The translations under genes were made by a program, and so were the position numbers. A DNA stretch of 48,932 bases, from the NCBI GenBank assembly GCA_003598025.1, contig QZKH01000004.1, forward strand, positions 1 through 48,932. Direction: 5' to 3'. The notes under the pieces are model-generated. The model did not search any database. It had not been told where the DNA came from and was given only the letters and a program-made list of their open reading frames with translations. Positions 1-48,932 of the stretch are shown in pieces (the stretch's first letter is position 1; every line of letters begins with the position of its first letter). Source of the DNA: Candidatus Omnitrophota bacterium. GTDB lineage: Bacteria > Omnitrophota > Gorgyraeia > Gygaellales > Profunditerraquicolaceae.

Positions 1-1190
1 ATAGACTCAAACATATATTTTGATAAGAGCGGCCAGCTTGATTACTTTACAGGTACAAATTATGTTAAGAATATTGATGGTAAGGGACAGTTTATAACTT
101 TAAATTCAACAGATAATGATGGTCAGAGGCGCATAGGTGGTTACAGATTCTCAGGAGTTCTTAAATTACAGCATAGCTTAGACAGCGAAAACAATGTTCG
201 TCTTGATGTCGCAAATATATATGATCCGGTTGCACAGCAGTATAAAGACCTTACAATTTATAATACTTATTATAGTACACTTGACGGTGTAAATATTCAG
301 AAAGCCGATATCAACACATTTTCAATAACTCCAAGGATTGATAATAAGGGTAAGACAATAACAGGTCAGGGAGATATACAGCTTACCATGGGTGGTATAC
401 CTGAAATGAATGCCCTGAATTCCGATAGGGGGGTATTTCAAACAGCGCTTAATTCTCCTTTTAGCGGCAGCCTCAAACAATTGATTAGAGAGCAAAGTAC
501 ATTGGTGACGGACAAAGGGTTTACTCTTGTTACTCCCGATGGGCTTGTTATCAATATTGATAAGAATGATCCGAGAGTAAAAGATTTAATCAAGAGGCTT
601 GATAAAAAAGCTATCTTGATAACATTAGATGATGGCACTCAAGTAGTTGCAAGCGAAGACTGGCTAAGCAGACCACGTTGGTGGAAACCTCATACTTGGG
701 GTGATTATAAAGGAGAAGCTGCTGATGGTGAAAGGGTATCATTGGATAATAGCCGTCTCATGGAGGCATATTTAGAATTAAGAAATGGCGGGCAAGGAGA
801 AATAGGTGAAGATTTAGATAAGCTTTTGCAGGGGGTGCCTGTAAAGGGGTTTATTGATGGGGTAGAGGTTATAGTAGATAGCGCAAGTTTAACCAGGACT
901 GCCGGCGCTGGCTTCTGGAATTTATCTCTTGACGACAAGGTATTTATTGATACCAGGGGAAATCAGTATTATATAGACGAAGATAGAGTAATAAAGGCCC
1001 CATGGCTTGGAAAAGATGAGCTCGCATCGTATGGATATAGAGGAGATGATATTTTAAATGAAAGTAGCAATGATTGGCAACTAATAGCAAGAGATGATTA
1101 TGGCGTGCCAAAAACAGTTTTTATAGATGGTAATCAGGCACAAGACTTAGTAGGTACTTATATTGACGATTTCCCTGATTTGTACGGCGC
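1..1190 (+). other. Beta-rich segment of the giant protein, family unknown
   Basis: The first ~395 residues in the window are rich in Asp, Asn, Gly and alternating hydrophobic residues. They include strand-like stretches such as GVLKLQHSLDSENNVRLDV, and later short FIDG/VFID segments (near 850, 940 and 1120) that look like repeated extracellular beta-hairpins. No catalytic motif is recognised. The segment precedes the Gly-rich hydrophobic region, an arrangement reminiscent of polymorphic secreted proteins (RHS or haemagglutinin type), but I cannot assign it to either. Confidence 0.4.
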
Positions 1191-4100: not shown

Positions 4101-7100
4101 GCCTTCAACAATTCCTGCAGCAGAAGCTTTAAGAATAGAGGGAGATGGTCATATCGTTTGGTTGGTTGATGCGAAAGGCAATCAGCTTGCTCAAGCAGAG
4201 ATTGAACCATTTAGAGATGGCATTGCTATAAGGCTTATGGAGGCAAAGGTCAGGGGTTTTGGATACGGGCAACAGCTTTTAGACAAACTGATGGAGAGGT
4301 ATAGGGTTATATATACAGGTAAGGATGGCGATCCAATCAGCGCTGATGCCCAGAGAATGATTTACCGTATGGCTGATAGCAGCCGCTATGCAGTTGAGGG
4401 GACAGGAGATTTTGTACGTAGGAGCCTTGCAGGTACACACAGGTTTTTAGATAAAAAACCAGCAGAGCATGTTAGGATTTCTTTAGCTCCTATGGGAGCA
4501 GTTCCTACTAATTTCAGGTGGGGACAGACTCCTAGAGAGAAACCAATTTCGATCGATATTAGTTTATGGACACAGAAGACCGGAAGAGTCTTCTTCCCTC
4601 GTCATACGTCAGTAAACGCTGATCAAACATATGCAAGTGATGGTTTGGTAGGAGAAGACATGTCTACACTGGAATCAAATCGAACTGTGGAAGTTCCGGC
4701 AGCACAGGCAGCTGAGGTTAATGCCAATAGCCCATATAAAATAGTCCGCGAGGCTTTTACCAAGCAGATCGGTCGCATTGATGATATGGTCGATGAACTG
4801 CGCGCCAGGCGCGAATTATTGCCGTCATTAGGTGGCGGAATTATAAAGACATTCCTGGGTTCCATGATGCTGAAGAATAGAATATCCAAGCTAAATGTAG
4901 TCAAGTCTTCATACGAGGATGCAATATCTGACTTAAATGAAGAATCTGCCAGCCAGCATCTTGTCGGTTGGTTAATGGGGAATCCTTTGATGTTCTCGGA
5001 AGATTTCCAGGAGGCTGCGAGGTTTAAACCTGAGGATTTTGTTGGAAGAAGGTCATGGGAAATAAGAGGTTCGCAATTTTTGAGTTATGCAGCTTCCGCT
5101 TTAAGAGGTTACGAGCTGAAAGAGAAAGAAGTAGAAAAATTGATAGGAGCGTTAAAGGGAAGAGTCGGTTCTGGAGTGATATCGCCGGAGAATGTCAAGT
5201 TTGCTTTTAGTAGGGCTTATGGCCTTTTATCTAGGCAAAGGATGTTTAATAAAGAGCAAGCATTAGGTATGATTGACACTTATGAAAGGGATTTGATGGC
5301 ACGAGGAGTAAACGTAGATAGTTTACGCCAGCAAGTCTTAGAAACAAAAGGATACTCTTTTGAACCTTTGGTAAAAATAATGAATCCATTATTACAGATG
5401 GCAGCAGAAAGGCGCAAAGAACAAGAGTTTGTAATAGGTGGTAAAACTTTGTTAGGCCAGAATGCGGGAATAATTCCGGTAGAAGTCGTTGATGGCGAAA
5501 CGCTTTCCAATACAGCAACGGGTGAAACAGTCAGTTCACAAGCGCAGCAAGATGGAGTTAAAATAAGCAGAACGGCAAATCATATGTATATACCTGACGA
5601 AAACGGAAATCTGTCAATCGGCTATGATTTAACCGGTGAATTTAATTTATGGTCAGGCAACCACGAGTTTTACCATCCTATACTTGCCAAACTTGCTAAT
5701 GGCGAGGGCAAGGTTGACTTGGATAAAGTCGCTCAGCTTCCGGATGCTGATAAGCAGAGAATCATGCGTTTACTCAGGAAGGTTTCAGAATTAACAGGAA
5801 TACGCGTTGAGGACCTAGATATATCTATGAGAGAGATGGGGGTAAATGAGCTTATTGATAGGACCATAAGTACCATGGATGCACTGGAAGCCTTAAAAAG
5901 CAATCCCGGATTAAGATTTCTGGACGGTGACATTTATTCCGATAGGCCAGAGTTTGGCTCGTTCTTTTATTATTTGCGTAATAAGGTATTAGGAGTAAGC
6001 ACTCGAAATGTAAATACGCTTATAAAGAGAGCCTCGGCTTTAAGCGATGAGGAGATGCTTGAACGGATATTTAATAATGATAGTTTTGCCAGGCAGTTTG
6101 CTTTATCAAGAAAAAAGACGGAAACTCCAATACAGCACCACCCAGGGTTAGCCACTCAACCTGCTATGTCAGCACCTACGGGTTCTGTGAATGATGATGG
6201 GAAAACTATGGGAGAAGACCTGTTGAAATCTCGTAAGGTAGAAAATTCTTCACCCGTAGTTTTACCACAAGGTAAGATTAGTTTACCTGGATTGCTACGA
6301 GCTGGTGAAGTCGCAACTTTTAACGTGCCAAACATAAGTTCGCCGATTACTAATGAAACCGGAGCGCGTGCTCCTCCGGTTGCTGTACCGGAGATTGGAA
6401 ATATCAACGCTATAACTACCCCTATCGAAGCTGCTAATATCCAGAATATACTTCCTACAACAATCGCTTTACCTATAAATAAAGCAGAGAAAGTCTTATT
6501 ACCTCATGTTTCTACCGAAAAAGAATTAACTGGCTGGAAGAAAGCTGTTACAAGTTTAGCCGGGCCGCTGGCAAGCCTTGGTATGGCAGCTGGTTTAGGG
6601 TACGTGGCTTATAAAGGTCTGCCAGTAAACAGTGTTACAGATTATTATGCAATAACTCTTGCTGCTATATCCGGCTTACAGGCTGTCGTTGATACAATGC
6701 CGCGGGAAGCTACTGTCAGCAGTGTGGGAGTGAGTAACAGCAGATATGCCCAGGCAGTAACTGCCTTGATAGCACCTGTTTTGTTTGCCCATGAAGGAGC
6801 GCATTATTTAGCTAACCGTTTGCTTGGTAACCCCGCAAGAATGCATTTGTTCATGAAGACAGATGCCGGATTAGATCCAGATGTAAAGTTAGCTAATGAT
6901 GGCTTGGCTGCGATTAGGGCAATAAGAGGTTTGGACCAGGAGAAAGTTTCTTCTCCTGTTAACCGATCAGAGATACTCGCCGCAGCATTGGGCGCTATAG
7001 CTAAGACAGAAGACATTCCTTCAGCAACTGAAGTCTCCTCACCGATAAAATTCCAGCAAGACACAGAAGATGGCCTGGAGATAACTGAGATTGTTGATAA

Positions 7101-10100
7101 GAGATATAGCACTGGTTTAATTACCCCGGATCAATATACATTCACAGTAATAAACCACGTGCAGAGATTGACGCAAGATAATATTGGTCTTAAGGAATTA
7201 ACCGGTTATACGCTGCATGGAACATCTGTTGTTAATTTACGCAACATAGCAAGAGAAGGCAAGCTTAAGACTCATCCAGGATTCTCGGGTGCTGAGGCAC
7301 CAGGAGTATTTGTTACCGTCGTAGATAGGAACACCAGACCAAGCCAGTTGTATTTAGGTAGAGGCAGGGATTACGGCTCAGTACCGGCATTATTAAGGAT
7401 CCGCCATCAGGATGTAATGGATTATTTTGCCAATAGAGGAATTGAAAAAGTATTCATACCCGGAGGCGCGAATGCTTCTCAATATACCATAGATATACCT
7501 GCCCAGTTTATAGATTATTATGATTTTACAAGGGACAAGTGGATACCTGTACAGAATCATCTGTTGGGTAACATGGATACCTATACTTTAGCAGGTTATG
7601 ATTATCAGGTTGAAGCTATTGAGGCTTTTGAGGGAGCCGGCCAGCAGGGTATAGCTGATAAGTTAAAGACCCTGCCTCCTTACGCAGAAAACAGCTATAA
7701 CAGAGTAAGGGCAAGATTACAGGAAACAGGCTTAAAGGGCGATAGAGTAGATATACTGGCTCTTGCTAAGACTCTTGAAGTAGTAGCCGGCAACCAGCAA
7801 AAACAGGCTGCTGAAGCTGTTTCATCTCCGATAGACGCAAATATATTTGATTATGCAAAGAAAGTCAGAGAGGTAGCTAATTTAAGAGAACAAGTGAGAG
7901 TTTCTGGCGCCTTGCTTGAGAGCTTAGAATCTCATCATAGGGATCCTGCGGAGATAGAGCGTACCAAGGAAGTTTTGGCTGATTTTTCAACGCAGTTAGC
8001 TGATGCAGAAGCTGTTCTTTTAGCTGAGGCTGTTCCGAATCTTTCTATAGATATGGCTTCGCTTTCACCGGTAACAGTTGAGCAGATAGCAGTATTAAAG
8101 TCACTTAGCAATGAATACCAACAGATAGTATCAGCAAAGCCTCAAGGCTGGCAGGAACAGGCTATAAATGTTACAGATTCATTGTTAGCTATCGTTGATC
8201 CTTGGATTACAAATAGTGACAACCCCGAACTTAATATTATAGGTGATAGCATAGGCACAGGCGGTGATCTTGCGGTAATCGATATACGCAACAAAGCAGC
8301 CGCACTTAAGGCAACCAGCGAGAATATGGGTAAGGCTGGCAGAGATACTAAGGATTATGAGTTTGCTCAACGTATGTTTGATGCTAGCGTAGAAGCGCTT
8401 AGTTCCGTATTGAACAAAACAGATGTATTATTAAATAGCCAAATATCTGTACCGCTCAAGATTCAAAATGATGGCAGAGTTGCTTTTGACCCTGCTTTTG
8501 TGACTAGAGTTTTAGTGGGTATTGCAGAAGCTACCCCGAATATTACAGGCGCATCAGTCAGCAGCCCGTTAATCAAAACTAATATTGCTTTGGATTTGCC
8601 ACAAACCCCAGCAGTCAATATCCAAGCCATACCTGCAGCTAAGGGAATTTCCTTAGACAGCCTTTTGGCATCAAGTGTCCCGGCTGAGTTAATAAAGACC
8701 CCAGTCATAGCTCCAATAGCAGTCAGCCCTATTGAAGAAGCGCCATTTAATCCTAATACTGCAGGTACATTAGGCTTTGGCATGGGCAAGACCCAGGCCT
8801 TACCTATAAATGTAGCAGGTGGTAGTGGTTCTGGAAATGGCGGCTCCGGGTTTGGCACAGGCTCAAACGGTTCTGGTAATGGCAATGGCAACGGCACAGG
8901 TACAGGTAATGGAGCCGGCGGCAGGCTCATAATAGAAGTAATGCCGGTTATACCTAAAGATTTGGGTTCGGTTGTAGGAGGCCTTTTAACCTCATCAGCC
9001 ATTGGAATGGCAGCGGATGCGAATAATCAGGACATGAGCACGTTCGGTGTCCAGATGCTTGGCCAGGCCGGTGGTATTAACGTGGCGGCTGCGAATCTCC
9101 CATTCGCAGGTCGTGGTAGTGAAATAAGCGGGAGAGACAATCAATATAGCAGCGCAATTAGTATCGTCAATGGTTTATCCAGAGATGATACAAGGTTTGC
9201 CCAAGGCTTGAATGCCGAAGGCAAAGGTTCAATAGTTGTAACAACAACTAAACAGGAACAAACGAATGCATCACCTGCAGCAAAAGATGTTGCAAACGTA
9301 ACAGGTTTTGGTAGCAAAACCAGTGGTTGGGCGAGTGCTACCTTAAAAGGTAAAGTAAGTTTAATAAAACCCGCATTAAATAACAGAATCCATGAATGGC
9401 TTCATGGATTATTCCTTATAAATCCAGTTGAAACCATAAGTGCTAGAGGTCCGCCATATCAAGTCACAAGGTCACAAGGTCACAAGGTCACAAATAATGT
9501 AAATTCCGCTTTAATCTCACCTATTGAGTTAGGAGCAGTGGATTTTGCTGCTTCGTCCGCTATTCAAGATATTAACAGGGAATCAACAGATAGATTAGTT
9601 CGGCCGCAGATTCCTTCCGTGGCAGGAGAAGATGCGGCTATTAACCCTCGTTACGCTCAGGATAATCCCGAGCGCAGTCGAGGGATTGTTGTTAATGAGG
9701 GCTCTTTGACGAGAGCCCCCCTCCAGGGAATGACCCCTCTTGCTGGAGCCCTCGTAACAACTACACCCCAAGTCACAAGGACACAAGGACACAAGAACAC
9801 AAAATTATTAACCAAGCCGCTGTCTGTTCCTACCGTGGCAGGTGAAACAGAAAAAGCGGCATTGTTGTTATCAGAGGCTGTAGAGCCCCATAACCTCCAG
9901 GGGACTGACCCCTCTGTGGCCTCTGATACAACTGTAACAGGAGGTGCAAAATGGTTCAGCTCAATTTTAACGAGATTGAATTTGACCACCTTGTTGAGTT
10001 CATCAAAGATAGGACAGTATTTGCAGCAGCTAGGCAGAACATTACAGGCCATATGCGCTTATTCCTCATCTTCGAAGATAATGGCAACATCTACACCCGT

Positions 10101-13100
10101 AACGGTAGAGCAGACAGCTGGGAACAGCTATATGGCGAGGATGCAAGCATCATCGCAGGTAAGATCGAAGCAGCAAAACATAACCACATCCCGGTATACA
10201 GAATCAACGGCTCGCATAATTAATGGTGGTTCGGCAGAAGCCAATGAAGAACTCGCCACAGGAGGTTTACGAGCCGTTGCTTCTTCCCCTATACCGTTAT
10301 TTAAGGATCAATATTCTCAAGGAGATCTTATTGATCCTCTGTATTGGGGGACAATTGAAAGATTTGTTTTACCGCTTCTGGATAGAGCTAAGCAGGGCAG
10401 GATTTCTTCTCAAGAGATAAAAGATACAGCAGCGCAGGCTGTAAATACTCTTCATGACCTTTTAGCAGGAAGGACCGAAGAAGAGGGCGAGCGCCAGAAA
10501 TTAGCCAAAGCAAGAGATTCTATCATTGCTGATATTCAAAATGGCTCTGACCAGCAATCGTTTGCAAAGGTAATGGCTGCTTTTATAGGTGAACAGGCTA
10601 AAGCAAACGGTAATGGAGGGTACGCCAATGTTTATTTCCCGAGAGATATGGCTCTGTGTTTCCCTGCAGACGCTGTTGTAGATTTGCTCAATGACGATAT
10701 GCCTAGCGCAGGGCTCTATTATATAAGCAGAAATAATTTTGCATATTATTCATGGATGAGCAGCACAATAGATTCATTAAATCATACCTCTCATGGCACA
10801 AAAGAACTATTAGAAGGTTTTATCAGAGCCATAAAGGAAAAGATGGAGAGCGATGCCGGATTTAAGGCAGCGATTAATAAGATAAAAGAAGAATTAGATG
10901 CATTAGGCTATGGGAAAATGAAAAAAGTGCGCTTCATCGATTCCGGTTTTAAGACATTCCCTCTGATGATGCAGGCACTTTTTGGTATATTCTACCCGCA
11001 CATTGAAACCAAAGGCTTAGTATTAGCTAGTTCGGTTCCAAATTTCTTACCTCAACTGGATAAGAAAGATTGGCGCCAGAAAGTCCGAGCTGCTATTGAA
11101 TCCAATCCTTCATTAGCAAAGCACGCTGTTCCTAATCTTGGTACAATGGAAAGCGCAGAAGATTTCTTTAAGCATCCATTTAAATATGACGGCGGCATGG
11201 TTCCTACTTCTGCGGCAGACCAGTTATTGTCATTCTGGTATCAGTTTGCTTTTGTGGCAGGTGCCATATTCTACGACAGGTTGGTAAAAGGATTAATTGA
11301 TGACTTGGAGAAGCATGGCGTTGAAGAAGAACAGGCAAAAGAATTAGCCCACAACGCTGTTAAGGATACCTTAGGTGTAGTAGATATTGAAGATGAGCAA
11401 ACCGGTGTAGAAACTGCGGTATTAGCCGTGTCTACAACCGAAGATGATAGTGAAGAAAGTACGGCTGATGATTTAGTAGCCCAGGTTGAAGCAAAATTAG
11501 CAGAAGAGGTGCCTGGGTTTAGCCTCTCAGAGGACACCAAAGAAGATTTGGCTGGTTTGGCTAAGGATAAAGCCACGGCAGATTCTACTATTGTTAAGGC
11601 AGAAAAGGCCAGGGATGATAAAAAAGACGATGATCAGAACAAAAAGCAAAGGTCGTTGTTAGCTTATATTGGCAAGATATTAAGGAATAAATATTTCAGA
11701 GTAATTGCCATAACCGTTCTCTTATTAGTAATCTTCCTTAAATCATGCCTGCCAATGACAGTAGATAGAAATAATGGTAAGGCTACCGTAGAACCTAAGG
11801 CACCACCTGCGGTTGTATCAGTTTTACCTGAACCTGTTACGCCTGTCCAGGTAACACGCACAGTCCCTATTTCTTATGAAGATAAGGTTGATGAATACGG
11901 ACATGTGTATCATTATGATCCGATAAGTGGAAGATATTATACGGATATCGATGCCACATGGACAAGCAAGAACCCTGCTAAATTTACCACTGGAGGTATT
12001 GCCAGGGGTTCCAGAAACGCTGGCGTGGGAAATGAATACCCTGCGTTGTATTTTGATGGTGTAAATCAGGTGGTGAACGATACGGCGAATATTGATAATA
12101 ATTCGGTTCCTCCGCAGTATATCACTCATGTTGGAAACAGATTTTATGTTGGCGAGGTTTTACCAAGCACAAAGACAGAAACCGTTATTGAAGAAGGTAA
12201 TGCCCCATCTTCAGAAGAACCGTCAGTAATCCCGCCATCCGAACCTCAGCCGGAAGATGGCACAACAAATACAAATCCTGAGACTGATTCGGAAACACCA
12301 GTTCATGAGAATACCAATAATTATTTATTACCTATATTATTAGCCGGTGCAGGCGCTGCACTTCTTGGGTTGGCTGCTATACGTAGGGTATTTAAGAATA
12401 AATCTGCTCCAAAGGCAGCTGAAAAAGGCCAAGAAGAAGCTGCAGCCAAAGGACCAGCTGTGACTTCTACAACTGCAGCTACAGCTGATTCAGCCTCAAC
12501 AGATGATTCCGCAAAAGAGTCCCCGGTTACAACCGCAGCCGAAGGCGATATTACCAGTGAAGAAGCCGCTGAAGAAGAAGCCATAAAAGCAGAACAGGCA
12601 GCAATTAAGGCTGTTGCCGATAGAGAGTTAGCCGAAGAAAGAGCTATGCAGGATGCGCTTGAAGCAGGCCCTGTAAGCTTGCCAAAAGCCAATGTTCCTA
12701 ACGCCGTTAAGAAAAGTTTAGATAAGATTAGGAGAGCTAGGACAGAGGAAGAAGTAGAAAACGCCAGAAAAGCAGCATTGCAGTATATTAACGGCAGAAA
12801 AGGACAGGGAGTAAGCGCAAAGAATAAAGCTTTGACTGAGGCAGTGGTTAACGAGGAAGCAGATAACGCCATTTTAAGATTAAGGGCTAAAGCCAACGGT
12901 ATAAAGACCAGGGCTGAAGAAGCAAAGGCAAATGCCGCCATATCTGAAATAGCAAATAGAGCCAGGGATTTTGCAGCAGCAATAAGCATCGATGAGCTCA
13001 TTAGATTGCATACTGAAGCCATAGAAGCAGTAGGGGCAGCTTACTTAAGAGGTGATATTGATGAGGCAACAAGAAGCAACCTCTTAGCAATGCTTAAAAA

Positions 13101-16100
13101 TGAAAAGAAGGCCGTTGAGAAATCATTAAAGCAGGAATTAAAAGATAAGAAGGCTGCCGAAGAAACAACGACTGCCAAACAGCCGGAAGAGGAAGCCGTA
13201 GAGCCTCAAGAACAGAAATCCGCAGAAGAAATAGCTAAGATTAAGAAAGCAGCTGCCAAGAGGCAGAAGAAAGCCCAAAAACAGGAAATAAACAACTGGA
13301 TCAATGAGCTGAATAATTTTGAACCCGAAGTAGTCAATGATGAAAACAGACCTGAGTTACAGGCTGAAATAGATGATGTCCGTAGCGTAGCCTTAGCTGC
13401 TATAGAAGAAACAAGCTTAAGCGCGGAAGATAAAGCTCAGTTACAGGAATCAGTAGAGGATGCTTATGCTCGCGCACAGGAAAGGTTAAATAGCGTAGAT
13501 TTGGTATATGCTTCAGATGCATCAAGTGAGCCGTTCAATGGTATTAATTTAGGCCAGGTAGCAGCAGAGCAGGGCCAACACGAAGAAGAAACAGCCCCTG
13601 GAGCCGGAAACAATAGCCAGAAGAAAAACATTGGAAAAGCAATTTCTGCCTTAGAGGAAGTAGTCAATACCGAAGAATTAGAGGAAACTGTTGCAGGGAT
13701 AATGCAAGATATAGACGGGTCAACTTTAAAGGATAACACCAAGGATGCATTATTAAATAAATTACAGAGAGCTTATACTGCTGCTCAAGAAAGAATTAGG
13801 CAGTCAGCTGTTGATGAAGCTAATGCTAAGGCAGAAGCAGCCAAGGCCCAACAGGAGGCGATGGAAGAAGAAGCCAGAGAAGACAGAGCCCTTAGAAGAG
13901 CAGTAGAGCTAGATGTTGAAAAGAACATCTCACTTTTTGCCGCTGCAGAAAACATAGCCGAAGTAAATAATTTAGCTGTTGATGTTGAAAATGAAATTAG
14001 TAATTCCGGGCTATCGGGACAAGCAAAAGATAAATTAATGGCCAAGCTAGAAAAAGCCAAAGCCAAGGCAATAGCAAGGTTAGAATATGAGGCAAGGAAA
14101 GCTTTAGAAGAAGCCAATCCGCTATTATCAATCTTGCCTAGAGAGCAGGCAGAAGCACTTTTGAATTTAAAGGATAGGTTATCCGATAGCAGGGAGGCTG
14201 TAGAAGATGCATTAGTCGAAGCCCAAAGAGGCAATGATGAAGTATCAAGATTGGCAGAGGCGCAAGAAATAATAGCTGCAGAAAGAGCCTTAAGGCAGCA
14301 TGAAGCCGAAGTTTCTCAGGCTCCAGTTGTAAAGGCAGGACAGCCAAGAGGCTTATTCGGTTGGGTCAAGAGAATGTTTGGCTTTAAGGGTAGCTCCAGC
14401 CCGATAAGAGAAGATAAGCAAGATGGGGCGTCGTCACCGGTAAAATTAGCCAAAGATACAGCTATAACATACAGTCATGGAACCTCAAGCCCTATCGAAG
14501 TCAATTTTGACGACAAGGTTGATGAACAAGAAGCAAAGGTTATCAAAGGCCTGCTTGCCAGGGACGGATTCCTTACCGAAACGATAAGAAGGATATTCAC
14601 TGTTATGAGAGCCCAAGAAGATATTAGCTTTGTCTACGTAAAGAAGCATGAGCGTGGCAGCCAGAAGCAGGTTTATTATGTGGAAGTTCACACAAAACAA
14701 GAAGAAACATTTAGTTTCGCCCTTAAGAAAGAACTAAGGCCGGGCGGCTTTAGGGAAGAAGAGATTAAGAGGTTGATTGATTTAAGCGCGCGCGCTTCGG
14801 TAACTCCCAGATTCGGAATTTATATTGGAGTAGAACAGTCAGACATAGAAGGCGAATTACTTGAGTATAAAGTTTATAGTGAGGAATTCATTGACGGCGT
14901 AACCGCAGCCCACAGGATTGTAAGGGATGGTATTACTGGAGACGTTATCAGGGATATAATTAAAACATGGATGACTATTGTTGTTATGTTAAGCAAGATG
15001 AATGGTAAAGGCGCTTATTATACGGTTATGGATATGCAGCGCCAGAACATACTCTTTAGGATTAAAGACAAAGAAATAAGAGGGCCTCCTGTTGTTGTAG
15101 ATATCGGGCTTGTAATTAAAACCAGCCCTTACGCTATCTTTACAGAATTATTCAGGCATTATAATTATGATTATCAAGATGCTATTAACATTATAGCCTT
15201 AGCTATAGTAGAAGTTTTAGGCGTAACACACGCAAGAGAATTCTTTAGCAGCATAACCCACCATATCAATAATAGAAAAGCCCATGCTATCACTGCCCAG
15301 GATGTTCTTATTAAGAAGGCATTAGAAGGTATTATAACCTCTCTTAGCCAAACCGATTCTTCAGAAGAGCAGTCATCCAGCCCGATTACAGAAACTCAGC
15401 ATGAAAAACTCGTAGCTTTATATCAGAATTTAATAGCCGAACGTGAAATGCCTATAGATTGGCCCAGGGGCTCGATATATAGAAGGACAATCGCAGAGCA
15501 TTTTAGGTATAGTTTAGTTGACAATGAGCATGCGCAATTTTCTACTGCAGTTGTATTGATCAAAAGCGGCATAAGTGTTTATGAGGTATTTGAAAACTGG
15601 AAGATATTTATTAATGGTATCAAAGATAGTGAAGTAACCGGTACTTATGATTGTTATGCCTGTGTTGGTTATGCAGTATCTGCTTTAGATAATAGTGGCA
15701 ATAGGGTTTTGGTGCTTGGCCATGCAAGGCCGAAAGATTTTGCAAAAGCGATAAATCATGATATAGAGCAAGTTGCGAAGGTTGCGAGAGGCAAAATCAC
15801 AGTAGTTGTTTCTTATAACGAAGCAAATAAAGGTAATCCAAATGTTGGTGCTGAAGAGCTGTTCGAAAACTTAAACGCAAGTGAAAATATAGATTTACAT
15901 GTCCTTCCAAGAGCAAAAGATACGGTTGCTGCATTAATTGCTACAGGCGCAGGTGTAAGCCATATAGTTGTGCCTGGGGATTTGCATAATTCTTCAGCAC
16001 CTAAGGTTGAGGCTTACGGTAAAGTTGCTATAGCAGAGACAGTATTATTTAATATTTCTTCTTCGCCGGTTAAGCAAATAAAAATACAGGTGAAAGTCCA

Positions 16101-34100: not shown

Positions 34101-37100
34101 ATTAGCGGCTGAATTCGGTTATCACATCAGATTAGCAGCCGGTTTAGGTAAGCCAGTAGCAATAGGTGAGTTCGGTGAATCGTCTTATGGTTCAATAGGC
34201 AAAGAAGGCCAGGCAGAATTTGCCAGGAACGCAACCGAAGCTTTATCAAGATTTATGGCCGGCAACAACGATCCTCAATATAAAGATTATCCTAAGGTTT
34301 TGGTAGGAATGATCTGGCATGAAAGAAGAGGCGAAAGTTGGAAGAATAGAGATATCAATCCTTCCGAAGAAGACCTGGAGTTATTTGATGATAGCGGCAG
34401 AGCTAAACCGGTATTTAACGCACTTTCAAAAGGCTATCAGGATGCAACTAAAGGGTTAACGGGTGTCTCAGCCCAGCAAGAAGTTTCAAAGCCAGTTGCC
34501 CAGACTCCAGAGGTTGAGCTAGCCCAAGCACAAGAGGCTGTCGCTCCTGTAGAATTAGAGCCAGTCCAGCCAGCTTCAGGCGTAACCTCAGATACAGCTG
34601 TAAGCCCAGAGCTGAAAGCCAGGGAAGAAGCATTAGTTAAAGCCGCAATAGGATCTGCAGAGAGCAGATATTTTGTACAGGTTTATACTCCTGAAGGCGC
34701 AACGGATAAAGAAGTAATTATGGGCTTTATGGTTGATAGAAACGGAGAGTTATTCATTGCTCCGCATTTTAATAGTAGTAAGCCGGTAGAAAGCGCATGG
34801 ACATGGTTAGGCGTAAATTTAGGCGATAATCCGGTTGAAGAGTTAAGGAATCGCATTGCCGGGTCCGAAGCAAAGGGTGAATTGGTTGAAGTCGGCAGAG
34901 AACAAGAAGAGGCGGTTGAGGCAGAGCCAGTAGTTGTTGCTACTAAGCCTGTTGAAACAAAACCGGCCGGAGTAAAAGCAGTGGGAGTTGCTGATACTAC
35001 AGCAGCAAAACCTGCGGAAGCACCGGCACCAACAGAAGAAACACGGGCCGAAGAAGAACCTGTCAAAGTTACTGAAGAAGAAACTCCAGCTTCCGAAACT
35101 CCTGTCGTTCCGGCAGCAAAGCCTGCACAGCCAGAAACCCCAGCAGTAACCCCGAGGTTTGAAGGCAAAGGTCCGTATGTATGGTATTTTGATGCCAATG
35201 AGAACGGAAGATATGATAAAGGTGAGAAGAAAGTCAAAGGACTCAACCCAGACGAAAGAATACCGGAAGTAGAAGATGCATTATTGGAGGGATGGAGGCC
35301 GTTAGTTGAATTAGGTATAAAGATTAATGGCAAGTTCTGCACTGTTAAGATGAACCAACTCGGAAAAGATTTCTTAGAGGCGAGATACCAGGAAAACTTA
35401 TTATTAGCATATTCTGATGGCACATCCAGATGGATTCCTAACAGCGACTTACTTGATAGGGCAAAACGCATTGCTTTAGCCCAGGAGATATATGATGGCG
35501 CCAGCTTAATGCGTTTAACCACAAGAGAAGACAAGCCCACCGAATACTATTATCCTTCAGCAAACTTAGATGAGTCTTATGTCATGGTTGTTGCACCGGC
35601 TGAAAGAGGAGTTCCTGTTTATAGAATGAATGCAGATGCAACCGGATTTACCGGTGAACCTGCTCATTATGCTCAGGAAATTGGTATAAGAGAGATCAGA
35701 TATAAAGCCGGGACCGAAGATAAAGTTAAGAGAGTCATAATCGTTCAGAACGTTGATGAAGAAGGTAATCTTATTGATTATCTTGGCTATGATGCCTGGG
35801 GTGTAGTTAGGGTAGATCCCTATATGAGTAATGGGGATGTCAGGAGAGTAAGTGTTCGTATCGATGGAGAGACTTCAGACTTGATTGGAGGAGAAGCCGC
35901 AAAGAGAGGGCTAACAGGAAAAGAGCCAGTAGCGCGCACTTATTCTGATTTTGATCGTAATGCAGATGATGAATATACATTTAACTTAAGTCAACAGACC
36001 GGTTGGGTAGTAGATTTAGGGGAAAATATTCTGAGAATTAATCAGGGTAACGATCAGCATATAGATATTTCATTCAACATAAAAAAAGAATTCAGCCAAG
36101 ATGGTAAATTCATAAGAGAATTCGGTATAGCTGGGGGAGAAGAGATAAAACTTAAGTTTAGCAAAGGATTATTTATAATACCAGGCAAGGTGCTTGGCAT
36201 AGATAGAGATGTCGCGTATATAACAAAGATTGTCGATGGTATTTTTGTTGCTGAGACGGCAATATCAGAGTCAGTAAATGTCAATTATGAGGATCTTCCG
36301 AATGGATGGGCTGATAAAATAGGTGTCATTTTGGGGAACCTTAATTCACATCCTGAACTAGGAATAGTTAATCCCAGTGATTTAAAATGGGCTAAAATCT
36401 TATTTATAAATCCTAAAACAGAAGTCCGTTTTAATCCCTCTTATCAAGCGTTTGAAGAAAGAGGTGTATTAAGCGATGATCCGGTAATAAAGATATCTGA
36501 TGAGGGCTTAGCGGATATTGAGTTTAATTATGTCCATAACGGTCAAGAGCATATAATAAGTTTGCGTTTTGATTTAACAGGTGATTCGAAAGAACCAGTG
36601 GCTTTAAGTTACCGTATAGATGAAAACCAAAAGCTAGTTGTTGATCTGTACAAGCATCTTTTATTCATTGATGTTCGTGATGAACATGAGGGTTACTGGA
36701 AATATAGACTTCACCTTACGAAGAACGGGCTGTTTGGCAAGACTTGGGGAGAGATGTTGGCAGAGTTGCCTGACATAGCAAAATATAAGATTGAAAGAAC
36801 AGAGCAGTTTAATTATGAAAATAATTTGTTCAATCCCGCATTGCTTAAGGCGCTGGATGTTAGCTACGAGACCAACACATCCTATCATATTTACAATAGT
36901 CACAATTACGCAGTAGAAATAGGTCATGGAACTTTAGATAGGATTGATTGGGATAATAATATAATAATATCAAGCAACTCGGTAATATTTTATGCAGATC
37001 AGGCTGGAGATAAGGAGGCTTTCAGGATTTGGTATAGGGCATATAGAGATTTTGATGGAAATGTAAGACTGCAGGAGTTTTATGGTAGAGATGATAAAGG

Positions 37101-40100
37101 CTTCGTTGATTTCAATAGACCTATATTGGCTATATATGTATTTGATTTTGATAATCAAGGCATAGGTAGAGAATCGGTTGTTATTGTTAGAGACCAGAAA
37201 GGTGGTTGGTATCCTTTAACAACAGCTTCATTTGATCAAGCCACTGAAGCTGTTGTTAAAAACGCTAAAGGGCATAGTTATACTGATCGTCTGTTTATTT
37301 TTGATGTTACTACTATAAACAGGCGCATGAATATTGACGTTGATATTAATAATCCTATAGAAGGTTATGTTGATGCGCAAAGGCTGACTGAGACTCTTAA
37401 AGCCCCTGAATATATCAGGGAGAAATACAGACTAGGTAAAAGTGGCGAAGGCAAGATTGCGTTGAGAGCGGATGGTTATGACATTGATCCTGATACCGGT
37501 GAACTAATTGGCGATCCGCTTTGGATTACCTTAGGTTCTTTCAACACAGATATATTCAACGCAACAGAGGCTGGACCATTACATTTTGGATATGGTAAAC
37601 AAGGGTATACATATAGATATAGTAGGGAAAATGGTTTTGATGCTGACAAGTATGTTACAAAGACTTGGGAAGATAGTAATTGGGTTGCTAGAGTTTTTAA
37701 TCTTAGAGCTGAAAATGAGAAATTTGTCTATGAAAATCAAGACAAGAGAGAGAATAAAAGGGATATTGTTGAAATAACTCTTTATCCGGACGGCAGGCTT
37801 TATAGCCAGCTTTCTATGGATAGAGATCCATCCTTAGGTTTAAGAAGGCCAGGTGTTTATTATGAAAAAGAGGTATTCTTCGATGAATTTGGTGTTGCTA
37901 AAGAAACCAAGGTCGCTGACAACGATTGGAATCATGTTACTGATATAGCCCATGTGAGATTCGGCCAGAGCGCAATGACCGGCAGGACAATTAATCATAC
38001 TACGATAGTATTGCCGGATCACCCAGGTTATATGCTTGTTGCTGATAATGATAATGGCGAAGGGACTATTGATTATTTAGGTAATTATGTTGACGGTAAT
38101 TATGGTCCGTATTTTGGGGAAGATCGCAAGTTGTTATTAGCCAGGGCGGGCCAGGATCCTGATGAGGTGTTGTTATCCGGGAAGATCGTCCTTGAAGATG
38201 GCCAGGATTATAAGTTTGAAAAAGGAGTTCAACTGTTCTTCCAGGGAGAAATCATAAAAGAACATAGTAATAGGTTCAGACCGGTAATGCACAGACAGTA
38301 TAATGAAGAGGGGTTAGTTGACAAAGCGAATGAATTCTCTGAAATACATATATCCGAACACTCTAAAAATAATTTAATCCATAATCTTTTCTTAGACAGA
38401 AACGAGCGTCAAACAGTAAAGCCTTTGTTGATTATTGTAGGCGTAGGTTTTGCTATCGTGACAGTAGTTCTTCCTATAGCGTTAATACTCTTTACCAAAT
38501 TCCTATACATAGTTAGTTTCTTCGGTAATCTTAAGAATTTGTTCTCTTCGCCTAAGAAGAGAAAAGGGCAATTAGCTGATTTAGCTCTCGAGCCCGCTGA
38601 TGATGCAGAAGCGAGAATAAGCGATGTCAATAAGATGCTTTATCAGAAGATAAGAGCAAGGCTTGCCGATATCGATAGACACTTGTATCTTATTGGCCAC
38701 TTATCCCACTATCTTAAGAAATTCTATTTAATAGCTGATAAGGCTACTTTAGAAGTTACAGTTAAAGGCGATGTTAATAGCGATAAGAAGGGCTTCTATC
38801 CACAAGGCCATCCTAAACACGATGAAGTTGTTGCTGACCTAGGTGCGCTTAATTTCGATGATATAGACGCCCGTTATCTGTTTATAGAGCAATGGTTTAT
38901 CAAACCAATTTCATACTTGTTATTTGCTTTAATTCTTACTCAGCATGATAAGTGGGAAAATTATAATAAGGGAAAAGTCGAGAAAGGTAAAGAAGGATAT
39001 TTACCTTTTAGGGATCAGGATTTAAGAAGGTTAGCTGAGTTCCTTGATGATCTGATATTGGATTTAGGGTTGCAGGATTACTTACTGCTGGGAAAGGAAG
39101 ACAATATCAAACAATACGTAGAAAAGATAATGAAGATTGCCGAGCAGGAAATATTAGGTTCTTTGGATGTAGAAGAGGCAATCACCGATTACCTTATGCA
39201 GATACACAACTTAAAAGCAGAGGTGATTTCCTCAAGCAGCCCTATATCAGAATTGGATTATAGAATCTCAAGGATGGAGAATATAGTAGCCGGTATAGAC
39301 CCCATGCTTCTTAGTGACCCCAATATATCTGTGGCAGTAGGCGAAATCAATAAGGCTAAGGCAGAGAAGACAACAAAAGTAGCAGAATTAGAGGCTTTAA
39401 TCAAAAAGTCTGGGGATAAGCTTGAAGAAATAGAGGAGAAGAAAAAGGAAATAGCAAAAATAGATAAAGAAATCGAAACGCTGGTAAAACAAGTTAAAAC
39501 AAGAGTCATAGGTTCGCTAAAGAATATTGGATCTGATAGCGATAGACTTGTAGTTAATCTCAGGCTGCGTCTAGCCAAAGAATATAAAGATAGAAACTTA
39601 TCTTATCCCAGGTATCCGCTTAAGATCCGTATGCCCGGTAAAGTTTTTAAGGCCATTGTCTCTACCTTCGCAGTTGCTTTTGCCCTGTTTATGGGTGTGC
39701 CACTTCTCGGTAAAGTTGGATTAATCTGGTCCAGCCAGCTTCCTACAACAGCCTTAGCAATGAAAATTATATGTACAGCTTGGCTTGCTCTATTCACCAG
39801 TCATTTTGTAGCGCTTGTTTTTGGAGTCTCGATCGCCGTATTAATAATTAAGGAGGCTCAGCACACAGGAAAATATGTGGATTTCCATCTTATAGATTGG
39901 ACAAAAGGCATTTGGAAAATAATGACATCCAAGAATACCCAGGAATACAAAGAACGTTATCAGAATGATCCGAATTTCAAGGATAAGATGGATACCAAGA
40001 AAGCATTTTTTCATAGGTATTTTTTCTGGGTTGCCGCTTCCAATATTGTTATGTGGTTATTTACTATGTATTTTGGCGCAGGTTTAATTCCAGCGGTTGT

Positions 40101-43100
40101 TACCACTTTAGGCATCTCGGTTTTGGTTACAGGTGTTTGGGCATTAGCCAGGGCTACTACTATAGACAATGATTTTGTGCGTAGAACAGCCATTGTTGTG
40201 GCTGTGACAGTTATAACTCTCAGTGTTATTATCACCGGATTAGGTGTGGCAAGCGTATTCTTGAGTCAAGGGGTATTCCCGTGGTTTGGTTGGTTAGTAG
40301 CATTTCCTATTCTTATTATGACTGCCAGAGAGTCGACAAGAACTTGGTGGTATCTTATGGTTGAAGCAAAAGCTATACAGTTAGAAAAAGAAGGCAGATG
40401 GGATACTATTAGTGCTTATCAGGAGATAACCGTTGGTTTCTTGGATAGAATAAGAATGTTGCCTGGTGATGAGAGTGACCCAGTAGTCTGGGCAGAAAAA
40501 GAATATTTGCAGAGGATTTTCTTACATAATGTTATAGAGGGGTCGTTATTTAGGCATTTCCTTATAGATGATGCAGAGCGCACAGCTTTAAAGAATATTC
40601 TTAAGGGCAAAGGGCTTCCTTATCTTGCTGATCCGCGCGCACGCAGGGAATTAATTATGTTCTTTAATCTTATCGTTATGTTTGAGAAAGGAGAAATAGG
40701 TACTTATATAGCGGCATTAAATTTAGATCTGCTGCCTCCGTGGATTTATAAGGGCACGGGTAAGAAAGACATAGTTCGTCCTGATCTCCTGGACATCAAG
40801 GAGGCCAAGATGTCCGGAACAACTGAACGCATACCAGTATTAAAATCTCAATTCCAGATTATTAAAGAAAACTTTATGCATTCTTGGAGAGAATATTTGA
40901 CTAGGTTATTAAAAGAATTTTCTGCATTTGATAATAATCTCCTAAACGAATTATCTAATATAGAGTTGCCTTTCTCTGCGACTATTGATCGCATCGCAGC
41001 TAAAGTAAGCCAAGATAAAGAGAGTGCTTTCCGGGCTATAAAAGAGCATTCCATGGACTCATGGGTTGAGTATTTAAGCCGGCTATTAAGCCAGCTCGGC
41101 ATTTCTGATGAGGAATTTTTGGTTGAATTATCAGATGTGAATCTTCCTTTTTCAGCTACCATCGATCGCTTGGTAGAGAAAACAGGGCAGAAGAGGAACG
41201 AGATTGAAAAGAAAATCATTCGTGATTTAATTGAGATAAAGGTTATGTATGACTTCATTATTTTCCGCGCAGATGGTTTCTTAAAGACGCAGATTTTTGC
41301 TGAAGAAGCTGCTCTGGCAGCATACAGGAGTTTCCTCGGAGCTAAATTCTTAATTGATGCCAGGAAAGAGTTTATTAAGGCTCGTGGTGAAAGGATTCCT
41401 ACTGATGAAGAGTTAAAGACTTTACGCGCCAATGCCGAGATAAGAGCAGGCCAGGAGCTTTATAAGTATTTAATGCTGGTTACTTGCCATGAGGATATAG
41501 ATCCGGATAAACCTGAAGATAGTCCTATCGATGTCTTGATGACGCACTTAGTAAGAGCGCGTGGTTGGGAATTGAATCAAAGAACTCGAACAAGCGACGG
41601 AGTTTATAAGGTTTTAGTTTCTAAGAATGATAGCGATGATACGGAAAATCCCGCTTACTATTCATTCCCGGTTAAGGCAGGCAAAGGCTGGAAAGTTAAG
41701 ACCAACACCTGGAGCGTTACTGCAAGATTTATTGAGGATTACCTATTAAGGATTGCTGAGGAAGATGGCGCAGTTATAAAGGATGACGCGGTTATCTGGA
41801 ATGTTGATAGAGACCATTTCTTCCATCCATCAACTACATTCCTGATGCCGTTTATTGCCGCAAGATTTGGTAGTGATAAAAAATTAGGGTGGTTATGTAC
41901 CCGTTTGGAAGTATTTGTAGATGGATTTATGCCTGCAGCATCTGATCACCGTGTTGCCGAAGATAATTGGAATACAAGGGTTATTCCTGTTGAAGCCGAT
42001 TCCGGTATGCAGGCTTTCTATGGGCCAGGAGTTGTGCGTTGGGCAGTAATGCGCGGTTGGGCTTCTTATATGGATAATATTGAAGATACCGGCGGTGCAA
42101 TTGAAGCGCTAAAAATGCCATGGGAAGGTGATGATGTCTCAGAGGCCAAGAAAATGGGTTGGGGGGATGGCCATATTCCTGATACACAGAGAATGGGTTG
42201 GAAGGGTGGTTATACTCCTTGGATGAGATGGTTCAGGCCAAGAGAGATGGTTATGGGATCTCTTCCGGCATTCCAGGCTAGGTATGCAGGCCTTGTAACT
42301 GATACATTCTTACAACCGCATTTCCAACAGCTTTTAGCAAGTGATAGATTGGACTGGACGGAGAAGCTTACTCTCTTTGAGAACTTCGATTTCTATTTTA
42401 ATAAGCCGATTGTCCCGCGCTATAACTTAGCAATATTCCTTTTTGCGATGTTCTTGACTTTTACGCCTTTCGCTTTCTTAGCTGCTCCTTTATTCTTTAT
42501 CAGCTTACAGTATGTTTTCTCTCAGGCAATTACAGCTGGAGGTGTAAGATTATTTATTAATCAGCCTAAGCCTAATATGCCTAAATGGATGCCGAGAATT
42601 TTAGTAGGCCCGTTGAACTGGTTAATAGGATATGCATTGTATCTAAAGAGATTATGGAGTTTAGTATTTACCTTCCTGCCGTTTATTACTATGCATGATG
42701 AAAAGATGCTCAATGCCTTTGAAGGTAAAGCCGGTTTATTTACTTCCGGTATCAAGGATATTTATTATCCGATGATCAGTTTCTCAGAGCTATATGAAGT
42801 ATTCGGCTTGGCGGTGAAGTTTGCGGTTATATTGGGTGCGATTACGCTTTTCTCGCCAATTCACCCGTTTGGGGTACTTGGCGCATTCTTCTTCTATATG
42901 TTTATTATTGCTTCTATATTCGGTCCGTTTATGAAGAACGGTTACACCAATAAGGCAACTATTGCAAGCCTTATTGCATCAATTGCGCTTATGGTTGTAG
43001 GTTTATTCATTCCTGTTGTTATGTTTACAGTACCGGTACCTTGGATTATTACGGCTATTTACATGTTCGTCGCGAACAAAGGCAGCATTAGTACAACCTA

Positions 43101-46100
43101 CAATTATTTTGCTACTGACAGGATAGTAAGGGGTCTGGTACAGGGAGTTTTAGCAGCAGGTTATGCCGTATTAGAATTGATTCTAAAGGTGGATATCTTT
43201 GCATGGTTTATAAGGACGGTTGCTTCTACCAGCGAAGATAAAAAGAAGAAAGAAGACCCGGCGCATTCTGTCTTGACTTTGAAAGACTTTTTCAGTGATA
43301 AGTCCAGGTTTGCCAAGAAAAGCCACTATGCTATTGGTTCAGACAAAAAGATTAAGCTGTGGTTTGCAAAGAGGACCAGCGATAACGGCCTTGCGGAAAG
43401 GAATTTGAATAAAGTGCAATTAGCCAATGCCATAGTTGATAGCGTATTAATTACGGCATTAGGCATAGGGATACTTACTTCATTGCTGCCGGTAAGCCCG
43501 CTTTTGATTACAATAGCAATAATAGGCGTAAATACAGTATTTGCATTTATATATATGCCGCGGTTTACCGGCGCTATGGATGCCAGCGGCAAAAAAACGC
43601 AAAAATGGGAAGCATTTAGATTAGCTTTGATTTGGAGTTTTGTTGTGCCAGCATACTGGTTATCCGCAGGCCTCTGGATTGGAACTCCTGTTGCTAAGGC
43701 TAAGACTTCCGACAAGCCCAAAGATAAAGCGAGTTCACCGGTTAAAAATGATATTAATAATGATAGTTTAGCGTTGAAGAATAGTTCTTCACCAATAGCT
43801 ATTTTATTGGCTGCTCTTAGAACAATTAGCTATAGCGTTATCTTAACAAATTATCAGGTTGCCAATGAATCAGCACGTACAAATGCTCCTCCAATAGTAA
43901 ATGGCAATGTTTTATCTCCAATGTTAACTACTTTAGTTTTAGCTGGTGTTGTAGTTTTAGGGTTAAGTGTTATTTCGTTCTTAGCCATTTGGCGCTTTGC
44001 ATTTCCAGTGAGTTGGTTTGAACATAAATTAAGAAGAGCTTACGAGAATCAAGAGGCTAAGGAAGCCGTGATGGCTTTAGGCAGGATTGGAGATGACAAA
44101 GCTATTGGCATATTGATAGATACTTTAAGTTCTAGCTATTGCGGATTAGCAGCTGAAGTACTCCAGAAGATAGAAGTTGAGAGAGAACGAGTATTTGAGG
44201 GTTATATAAAGGCGTTAGAAAGTCTAGATGATGTGCCGAGACGGCATGCATGTGAAATGTTGGGTGGATTTGGTGATGAAAGGGCAGTCATACCTTTTGA
44301 CGGTGAGATTAATGAAGCCGCTTGGAACACAAGAATGGTTCCTTCCCAGCCGGTCATAATCAACGGTTCTGTATTGTACGGTTCAACTGTAGCAGAATTT
44401 AACGAAGCTGCTTGGAACAAGAGATTTGTATCTCCTCAGGCCACCATTGTGGAAACTGTTTGCTATGGGCCAAAACCAATTTTAATTAACGAAGCTGCTT
44501 GGAATAATAGAATTAATTTAAAACGGGATCAAGATAGTGATTCATCTTCTCCAATCTTTCTCAATTCCCCATTATCTTTGGTGCCGTCTGCTTCATCAGT
44601 GCATGAGAAAAATCTTGTAGTAATTACTGGGTATTCTGGCGCTGGCAAAAGCACTATTTATCGTTTACTCAAGATATTGTATAGCGGGGAAATAGTAAGG
44701 ATACCTTTATATATGGATAGAAAGCCTCGCCTTGGAGAGGTACAAGGGCGCGATATGGTTTCTGTCAATGCAAATGAAATCAACGTTATTTCTCGCAACC
44801 AAAAAGATTTTATATCTGCAATGCTCAAGGATGGTAGATTCTATTCTGTTTCGAAAAATGAAATAAACAAGGTACTCAAGATGGGCAAGATAGCCTATAT
44901 CGAAGTGCCTATTGAAATTTCTAGCCAAATGAAGCAATCGCATTATAGGCAAGCAAATTACATTTTTGTTTCGCCGCTCTCTACCGAAGAAATTAAGGCA
45001 GCAAGACAACAAGGTAAGAGCGAAATAGAGGCCATAAGAGAGGAATTGAGATTTAGGTTATGGCTTAGGGCATCTGATAGTGGTAGCGCCATAGGATCTA
45101 GGCTGAAGAGGGTTGAGGAAGAATTAGAGGAATCTCGTAACGGTTATAAAGTTATTGCAATGACAAGATGGGGAATGCAAGAAGCTGTTAGAAAATTGAT
45201 GGATAGTATAGGAAGGTCCGCTGCCGTTGTTTCGCTAGATAAAGTGACTGGTGAGCTTGAGCAAAATTATCAGATAGTAAATACTAATGATAGAAATAAT
45301 TTGGTACGTTTATATGAAGAATTTGACAAATTAGCTGGTAAAAGAATTGGGATAGTATTAGATGCCGAGATAATTTTTACAGTCCAAGGAGTAAAACATA
45401 TCTTAGCTAGGCTAAAATATGCAGGTTGTGTTATCCTAGTTCGAGCGCATAACGAATCACAGTTAGATTATCTGAAAAAGGTGTTTGCGAATAACGATAG
45501 TAGTTTAATTTCCGGGATGATGGTTAACCCTCGCGAAGCCAGTATCATTGATTACTACGAAGAAAAGGGAGTTAGCTTTAATTATATTGGAGTAGTTGGT
45601 GTACCGTTTTCAAACAAGTTTTATGCAGTAGAGATTGGATTCAATCAGCAGTTTTCTTTAAATGGAGTTTTAGCTGATTTATTCATGGCAATAAGAAAAA
45701 CAGAGAATAACCGCAGAGTTGAGGTTGCTAGAGAATCATTACGTACAGGAATGAAACTGGCAAGAGACGATATAAGAGAGGGATATGTTTTGTCTGTTGC
45801 CAAAGGGGGCGCATTTAATATAACCTTGTTCATAATGAAAGACAATGGGGGTATTATAGTTAGAAAAGAAGTAGATAGAAGTCTTCCCTCGGGAATGCAG
45901 CGTATTGCGGGAATCCGTCTCGCAGGAGAAATTGAATGGTTGTTAAACAACAGAAATACATATCCATGCATTGATGTGATTGCGTATGAACAGAGGGAAG
46001 ATTGCTTATTTTATGAAATGCATTTTTGGGGTAGTTCATTGCAAGATTCTATTTTAAGCGGTTCACTTGACTTTGATAATGCACTGATGTTATTTAGGGG

Positions 46101-48932: not shown

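Follow-up and report, generated by a model that had tools for sequence, protein, structure and literature searches.

The window analysed here, a stretch of 48,932 bases that is the complete contig C4 of an Omnitrophota genome, lies in the middle of a giant gene comprising at least 42,787 codons. The gene lies at the distal end of a Tad (type IVc) pilus locus and shares a leader and a core with its relatives, and its cargo modules are set apart by a recurrent Ser-Ser-Pro-aliphatic motif. As judged from sequence and predicted structure, the product is, on balance, probably exported and linked to the Tad pilus, serving as a cell-contact scaffold that spans the envelope and bears dozens of enzyme and signalling modules separated by SSP[IVLM].

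One reading frame across three contigs

The frame occupies the window from end to end:
1..48930, + strand: uninterrupted frame, middle part of the giant gene (codons 1-16,310 of contig C4)

A six-frame check of the whole window counted no stop in the 16,310 codons of frame +1, as the preliminary description had stated, and 529 to 1,707 stops in each of the remaining five frames, where the longest open run is at most 287 codons. Given the base composition of the window, ln P for zero stops in 16,310 codons is approximately -1,158. A codon-usage comparison trained on the genome's ordinary genes, with stops ignored, covered 54 blocks of 300 codons and favours frame +1 in 53 of them; the coding signal continues throughout. 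TAA, TAG and TGA terminate 50, 21 and 18 ordinary ORFs of the genome, respectively. With all three in ordinary use and frame +1 free of stops, no recoded genetic code is needed, in agreement with the earlier claim, and recoding was ruled out. Two further candidates were rejected: an intron or RNA element, since the frame contains no Rfam element, and internal ribosome starts at the modules, since few exist and none is near the motifs described below.

Because the window is the whole of C4, start and stop necessarily lie outside it. The genome (1.69 Mb in ten contigs, estimated 96.6% complete) was searched by reading the ends of all contigs and seeking exact end overlaps, which join C2-C9, C5-C6, C6-C3, C3-C1-C8 and C8-C10. 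Long open frames are found at four contig ends only (C9 right, C4 left, C4 right and C5 left), so that C9 -> C4 -> C5 is the sole arrangement these contigs allow. At the right end of C9, a frame of 1,146 codons runs off the contig; the approximate start is a GTG at C9:137,425. The left end of C5 carries 25,332 codons followed by a TAG stop at C5:75,998-76,000. Extending the contig both ways, as had been proposed, therefore located both ends of the gene. The codons add up to at least 1,145 + 16,310 + 25,332 = 42,787, or about 128 kb and 7.6% of the genome. No exact overlap was found at the C9/C4 and C4/C5 joins, and two short gaps thus remain. Comparison with relatives suggests that roughly 0.7 to 1.7 thousand residues are missing at the C9/C4 gap, and the C4-to-C5 join is based on scaffolding and relatives. 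A 433-aa beta-propeller-type (PD40) gene with an AGGAGG site (L016:16009-17310) lies 8 nt past the giant stop and is likely part of the same operon. Elsewhere in the assembly, contig C1 (26,763 bp) ends in 99-bp inverted repeats, the outer 55 bp of which also end C3 on the right and C8 on the left, so that the C1 segment may invert; contig C7 (13,271 bp) has 97-bp inverted ends.

Relatives carry frames of comparable build. With N, W and C denoting the C9, window (C4) and C5 parts of the gene, G137 has N then W in a single frame of 17,608 codons, G040 has N and W inside one frame of 42,913 codons, G256 has N, W and C in order in one frame of 35,009 codons, and G029 has W and C within a frame of 57,099 codons. 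Long frames in independent relatives, with parts in matching order, argue against both an assembly artefact and recoding. The G029 frame (G029:C6:1-171300) is longer than the present gene and opens in a QKEVLGGKIDE tandem repeat at an assembly break; the N-terminal part is on C7 of that genome, and joining the two would give about 59,000 codons. In G326, a single open frame of 25,048 codons fills the whole of contig C111 (75,147 bp).

By its sequence, the gene belongs to the published class of Omnitrophota giant ORFs, defined as uninterrupted ORFs >20 kb (Seymour et al., 2023; PMC10066038); the window alone holds 48.9 kb of the ~128 kb total. This bears out the claim that it is among the largest bacterial gene classes, and it also means that length alone is not new. 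The present giant has phylum, size class, transmembrane helices and mostly unannotated sequence in common with that class, from which it differs in its many recognised enzyme domains. The best-described member, from Candidatus Velamenicoccus archaeovorus LiM, encodes 39,678 aa according to the same paper; the frame counted here in NZ_CP019384.1 is 39,687 codons, part of which is given as the letter N.

Tad linkage, leader and conserved core

Upstream of the start and on the same strand are genes for a T2SSE ATPase, two T2SSF proteins (TadB/TadC type), and pilin-like and TadE/G-like proteins. The giant gene thus occupies the distal end of a Tad locus, and its product is not itself a known Tad component. 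Neither this linkage, located outside the window, nor the conserved core had been noticed in the preliminary description. A scan for the T2SSF family in 48 genomes was swamped by PilC matches and was replaced by inspection of fetched upstream DNA. This revealed TadB and TadC upstream of the giant, on its strand, in 27 of 28 other genomes of the class; the 28th offers just 11.7 kb of upstream sequence, in which TadE/G-like and pilin-like genes are still present. The Tad locus published for V. archaeovorus spans 12,382-29,832, and its giant frame begins at 29,823. The portion of Seymour et al. (2023; PMC10066038) drawn on here handles Tad loci and giant ORFs apart and makes no statement on synteny.

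The N-terminal 246 residues comprise a hydrophobic leader ending ...FLPEQVAQAVEY and a C39-like domain, in which Cys129 is invariant and His220 near-invariant. Leader and C39-like domain were found in 84 of 293 class genomes, a count in which the weaker matches span the C39-like part only, and mostly head long frames. Among 35 leader-type frames examined, ten are complete, with a stop inside the contig, and span 4,919 to 42,913 codons; the other 25 run off their contigs. A GTDB scan of 84,980 species returned 61 loci of the leader type, including that of V. archaeovorus (NZ_CP019384.1). Nearly all are labelled Omnitrophota; two are labelled just "bacterium" and one Planctomycetales.

The window contains the following domains and regions:
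16153..16605, + strand: M48 metallopeptidase with HExxH and ADEFSAD (Pfam PF01435, E 4.9e-11; motif inspection)
19003..19350, + strand: first response-regulator receiver, extent approximate (two Response_reg stretches reported; sequence)
19480..19824, + strand: second receiver, with phospho-acceptor Asp, Thr and Lys (PF00072, E 1e-24)
19870..39234, + strand: punctuation-free conserved core (0 SSP[IVLM] in ~6,460 aa; collinear relatives)
21184..21330, + strand: LysM, peptidoglycan-binding type (PF01476, E 4.7e-7)
22561..22737, + strand: TPR repeats (PF07719, PF00515, PF14559)
22933..23466, + strand: subtilase-like (S8) domain with His and GTSxA Ser (PF00082, E 2.3e-22)
24628..24837, + strand: HEAT repeats (PF13646, E 3.3e-29)
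25438..26580, + strand: (alpha/alpha)-toroid sugar-enzyme-like domain (AlphaFold2 and Foldseek)
30427..31338, + strand: outer-membrane beta-barrel-like domain, ~19 antiparallel strands, behind long helices (AlphaFold2, Foldseek)
33580..34230, + strand: possible clan GH-A (GH5/GH53-like) glycosidase, weak (PF00150, E 0.0058; PF07745, E 0.013)
38431..43995, + strand: cluster of hydrophobic (TM-like) helices after the core (hydropathy)
44608..45048, + strand: guanylate-kinase-like domain, P-loop intact (PF00625, E 4.6e-12)
46876..47409, + strand: HAD-type phosphatase with DxDxT and GDxxxxD (PF00702, E 3e-18)
48376..48609, + strand: DUF218 (PF02698, E 8.1e-8)

The core is collinear, in part or whole, over window aa ~8,470-12,640 in G040, G256, G137, G029 and V. 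archaeovorus. The V. archaeovorus giant matches, in order, residues 26-261 of the N part and 4824-5092 and 8870-12018 of the W part, and the search for homologues among Omnitrophota giants thus found both the N-terminus and the core. The toroid piece (aa 8,480-8,900) was modelled by AlphaFold2 with pLDDT 83.8 and pTM 0.84 and has Foldseek matches to GH76, epimerases and cellobiose phosphorylase. Relatives of this domain occur in 161 of 293 class genomes, and ~650-aa proteins that are common in the class end in a related domain. The one examined, a free-standing 625-aa protein (L195:619-2496), combines PilZ, a transmembrane segment, a coiled coil and the toroid domain of the core; relatives of ~650 aa are found in many of the 161 genomes. 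The barrel-like model is moderately confident only (pLDDT 61, pTM 0.51); all 50 of the listed Foldseek matches are membrane beta-barrels, at TM-scores of just 0.18-0.37. Ten of 293 class genomes contain this piece (aa 9,990-10,490), which in every case is part of a large open frame of 1,344 to 57,099 codons. Directly ahead of it, window positions 27898-30267 encode long helical hairpins (YWEGRL... repeats).

The domain list of the preliminary description, comprising signalling proteins, peptidases, glycan enzymes and small-molecule kinases, was confirmed for the most part by Pfam. Its glycan enzymes are weak by sequence; for one of them, structure prediction gives a sugar-enzyme fold. Both Pfam matches of the GH5/GH53-like stretch are below cut-off; a PDB GH53 match has E 0.047, and NE and GEFGE can be recognised by eye. 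The active-site motifs of the M48, receiver, guanylate kinase and HAD domains look intact in the sequence. In the subtilase-like domain, the Asp position is Asn (SFVFNSGVN), which makes activity doubtful. The guanylate kinase of the window was ruled out as the sole copy, as a separate ordinary enzyme is encoded at C9:37606-38139. In the C5 part, Pfam identified radical SAM/SPASM twice, two histidine-kinase-type ATPases, alpha-amylase, GH77, PHP, HD, an HTH array, cation efflux, GNAT, HAD, methyltransferase, EamA and HEAT. The HTH array comprises several HTH_3/XRE-type domains within the giant frame (L014:13503-20000; C5 codons ~12,779-13,133). A search of NCBIfam added nothing useful. The Pfam matches in window and C5 include no condensation, adenylation, ketosynthase or carrier domains of NRPS/PKS type.

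A simple hydropathy scan found 41 TM-like segments in the giant; 42 helices are predicted for the V. archaeovorus giant (PMC10066038). Up to aa 15,750 of the joined chain, a point just past the helix cluster, cysteine makes up ~1.6 of every 1,000 residues, and beyond it 8.0; the mean of ordinary ORFs of the genome is 11.7. A step of like kind occurs in five of six relatives tested together (six of seven giants including the present one; for V. archaeovorus, over the first 19,400 residues) and also in G193 and G295, which were fetched later. The position of the step was fitted post hoc, and p-values are thus optimistic. From hydropathy and cysteine content, we infer that the first third may be extracytoplasmic and the remainder cytoplasm-like, a topology the parity of which is made uncertain by helices ahead of the core.

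Ser-Ser-Pro punctuation of the cargo

The joined chain of 42,787 residues contains 92 copies of SSP[IVLM], whereas composition predicts 2.2 and locally shuffled sequences give 3.1, with 8 at most. The motif is confined almost entirely to the cargo, with 18 copies in the pre-core part of the joined chain, none in the 6,458-aa core and 71 in the post-core part. In the window, the zones are:
6247..10293, + strand: pre-core cargo, first part (SSP[IVLM] at nt 6247, 6337, 6949, 7036, 7822, 8560, 10282)
14395..19869, + strand: pre-core cargo, second part (SSP[IVLM] at nt 14395, 14431, 14485, 15376, 16060, 17605, 17635, 17932, 18748, 18988, 19450, 19858)
39235..48849, + strand: beginning of the post-core cargo zone (SSP[IVLM] at nt 39235, 43732, 43786, 44545, 47578, 47704, 47836, 48838)

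The motif draws on every one of the six Ser and four Pro codons. Codons scattered in this way rule out an underlying DNA repeat and, together with the variable flanks, indicate that the constraint acts on the peptide. SSP is followed by I, V, L or M in 92% of cases versus 29% expected, and the residue ahead of the motif is Ser or Ala in 66 of 91. TSP[IVL] is absent from the chain, ASP[IVL] occurs at chance level, and ordinary ORFs of the genome contain three copies of SSP[IVLM] in 54,545 aa. The flanks are slightly hydrophilic.

The motifs coincide with module borders. None of 91 falls inside the 27 Pfam spans (within C5, P ~4e-4). Using the wider form [SA]SP[IVLMA], 11 of 46 ends of homologous modules are at most 10 aa from a motif versus 2.9 at random, a number reached in none of 5,000 simulations, and five motifs fall inside homologous-module blocks versus 24.5 expected. 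The first receiver begins directly behind a motif (SSSPI-RILVVDDE), and the second has one 6 aa ahead and another 12 aa behind. The median segment between motifs in the C part is 298 aa, and the GH77 module is a whole 4-alpha-glucanotransferase; some segments are just 20-40 aa.

The punctuation varies between lineages. SSP[IVLM] occurs 103 times in G029, 16 in G012, 11 in G027, 15 in G040 and 12 in G326; in a later test set, G223 has 12 versus 0.5 expected, with the same zoning. V. archaeovorus prefers SSPA (32 versus 0.5), G029 has ASP[IVL] in addition (53 versus 2.7) and G040 has SSS[AV] (37 versus 1.7). The core region is also motif-free, or nearly so, in G029, G040, G012 and V. archaeovorus. 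The motif was not found in G193, G236, G109, G295 and part of G286 of the later set, nor in G256 and G137. It is thus lineage-patchy and is not required in every such giant. We read SSP[IVLM] as a putative protein-level recognition site, for cutting or as a standard hinge.

Possible roles of the giant protein

In the scaffold model introduced above, a Sec-type leader would export the N-terminus. The core, with its LysM, toroid and barrel-like domains, and the ensuing helix cluster would anchor the chain across the envelope, and the C-terminal two-thirds, with ordinary cysteine content, would remain cytoplasmic. Giant and Tad pilus together would form a cell-contact device bearing the dozens of enzyme and signalling modules, separated by a motif that may be either a cutting site or a hinge. 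Published data from V. archaeovorus support a contact function with Tad: Tad is expressed in co-culture, and peptides of the giant protein increase 3-fold in attached cells (PMC10066038).

How the motif is used bears on whether one protein of more than 16,310 residues is made, as had been claimed. The continuous frame stands; a single intact protein is not established, since punctuation at module borders makes cutting into many proteins a live alternative. One quite conceivable use of the motif, if somewhat short of probable, is as the favoured linker or hinge of an intact, unprocessed mega-enzyme. The hydrophilic flanks fit a structural role of this kind, as does the retention of the same core in giants devoid of the motif, but a generic linker should admit Thr, Ala and Gly, which the counts of TSP[IVL] and ASP[IVL] contradict, and the motif is rare in ordinary ORFs. 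Rather unlikely, but backed by several observations, is a bacterial polyprotein in which the chain is cut at ~90 SSP[IVLM] sites into proteins of a few hundred residues, with N-terminus and core being structural. The excess over shuffles, selection at the peptide level without Thr variants, the recurrent site at module borders, the median segment length and the complete GH77 enzyme all point in this direction, and the lineage variants SSPA, ASP[IVL] and SSS[AV] resemble what co-variation with a recogniser would produce. The shortest segments and the six related giants that have no motif speak against it. A bolder version, and a slightly more doubtful one, is an exported, Tad-linked polyprotein of >42,000 residues from which ~90 modules would be freed at a lineage-variable Ser-Ser-Pro-aliphatic site, leaving an uncut core that spans both membranes.

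Two conventional explanations fare worse. A surface adhesin of the usual giant kind would suit a host group described as predatory or symbiotic (PMC10066038) and the Tad linkage, but is very improbable: TRF detected trivial repeats only and internal protein repeats are nearly absent, which rules out arrays of adhesin repeats in the window, and Pfam returned no family of adhesin type in the parts scanned. The domain mix is thus unlike that of repeated adhesins, as had been noted. Ordinary separate genes, with stops lost through assembly or base-calling error, would account for domains that are ordinary enzyme kinds. This is barely credible in view of the independent genomes with equally long frames and homologous parts in order, the scarcity of in-frame starts with strong ribosome sites, and the lack of a Met excess after SSP[IVLM] motifs.

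Among known systems, MARTX multi-effector toxins offer an analogy only, as one exported chain with several modules. These are at most ~5,200 aa and release their modules by a built-in cysteine protease (PMC5218395); RTX repeats and C80 protease, characteristic of MARTX, are absent from the Pfam matches of the present giant in window and C5. The V. archaeovorus giant is much closer. Its leader and C39-like domain are homologous to those of the present giant, as are its core pieces, which are arranged in the same order; a Tad locus lies directly upstream, and Ser-Ser-Pro punctuation, as SSPA, occurs outside the core. It differs in its cargo modules and motif form. Giant genes of Omnitrophota reportedly reach ~85,000 aa in a preprint by West-Roberts et al., which is said to propose a role in predation or the cell wall. 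Apparently new are the shared plan with its Tad linkage, the conserved core and the punctuation, none of which was found described in the literature covered by the search. Tad synteny, a conserved core and punctuation of giants are not mentioned in the portion of Seymour et al. (2023; PMC10066038) drawn on here. The bulk of giant sequence has been described as unannotated and poorly conserved.

In conclusion, Omnitrophota giants share a plan of leader and C39-like domain, cargo, conserved envelope core, membrane cluster and further cargo. Together with their fixed place behind Tad and the punctuation, this makes them testable. The plan suggests which parts of the chain may be outside, which inside, and where it may be divided. 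If the motif is a cutting site, bacteria would possess large-scale polyproteins, a strategy best known in viruses.
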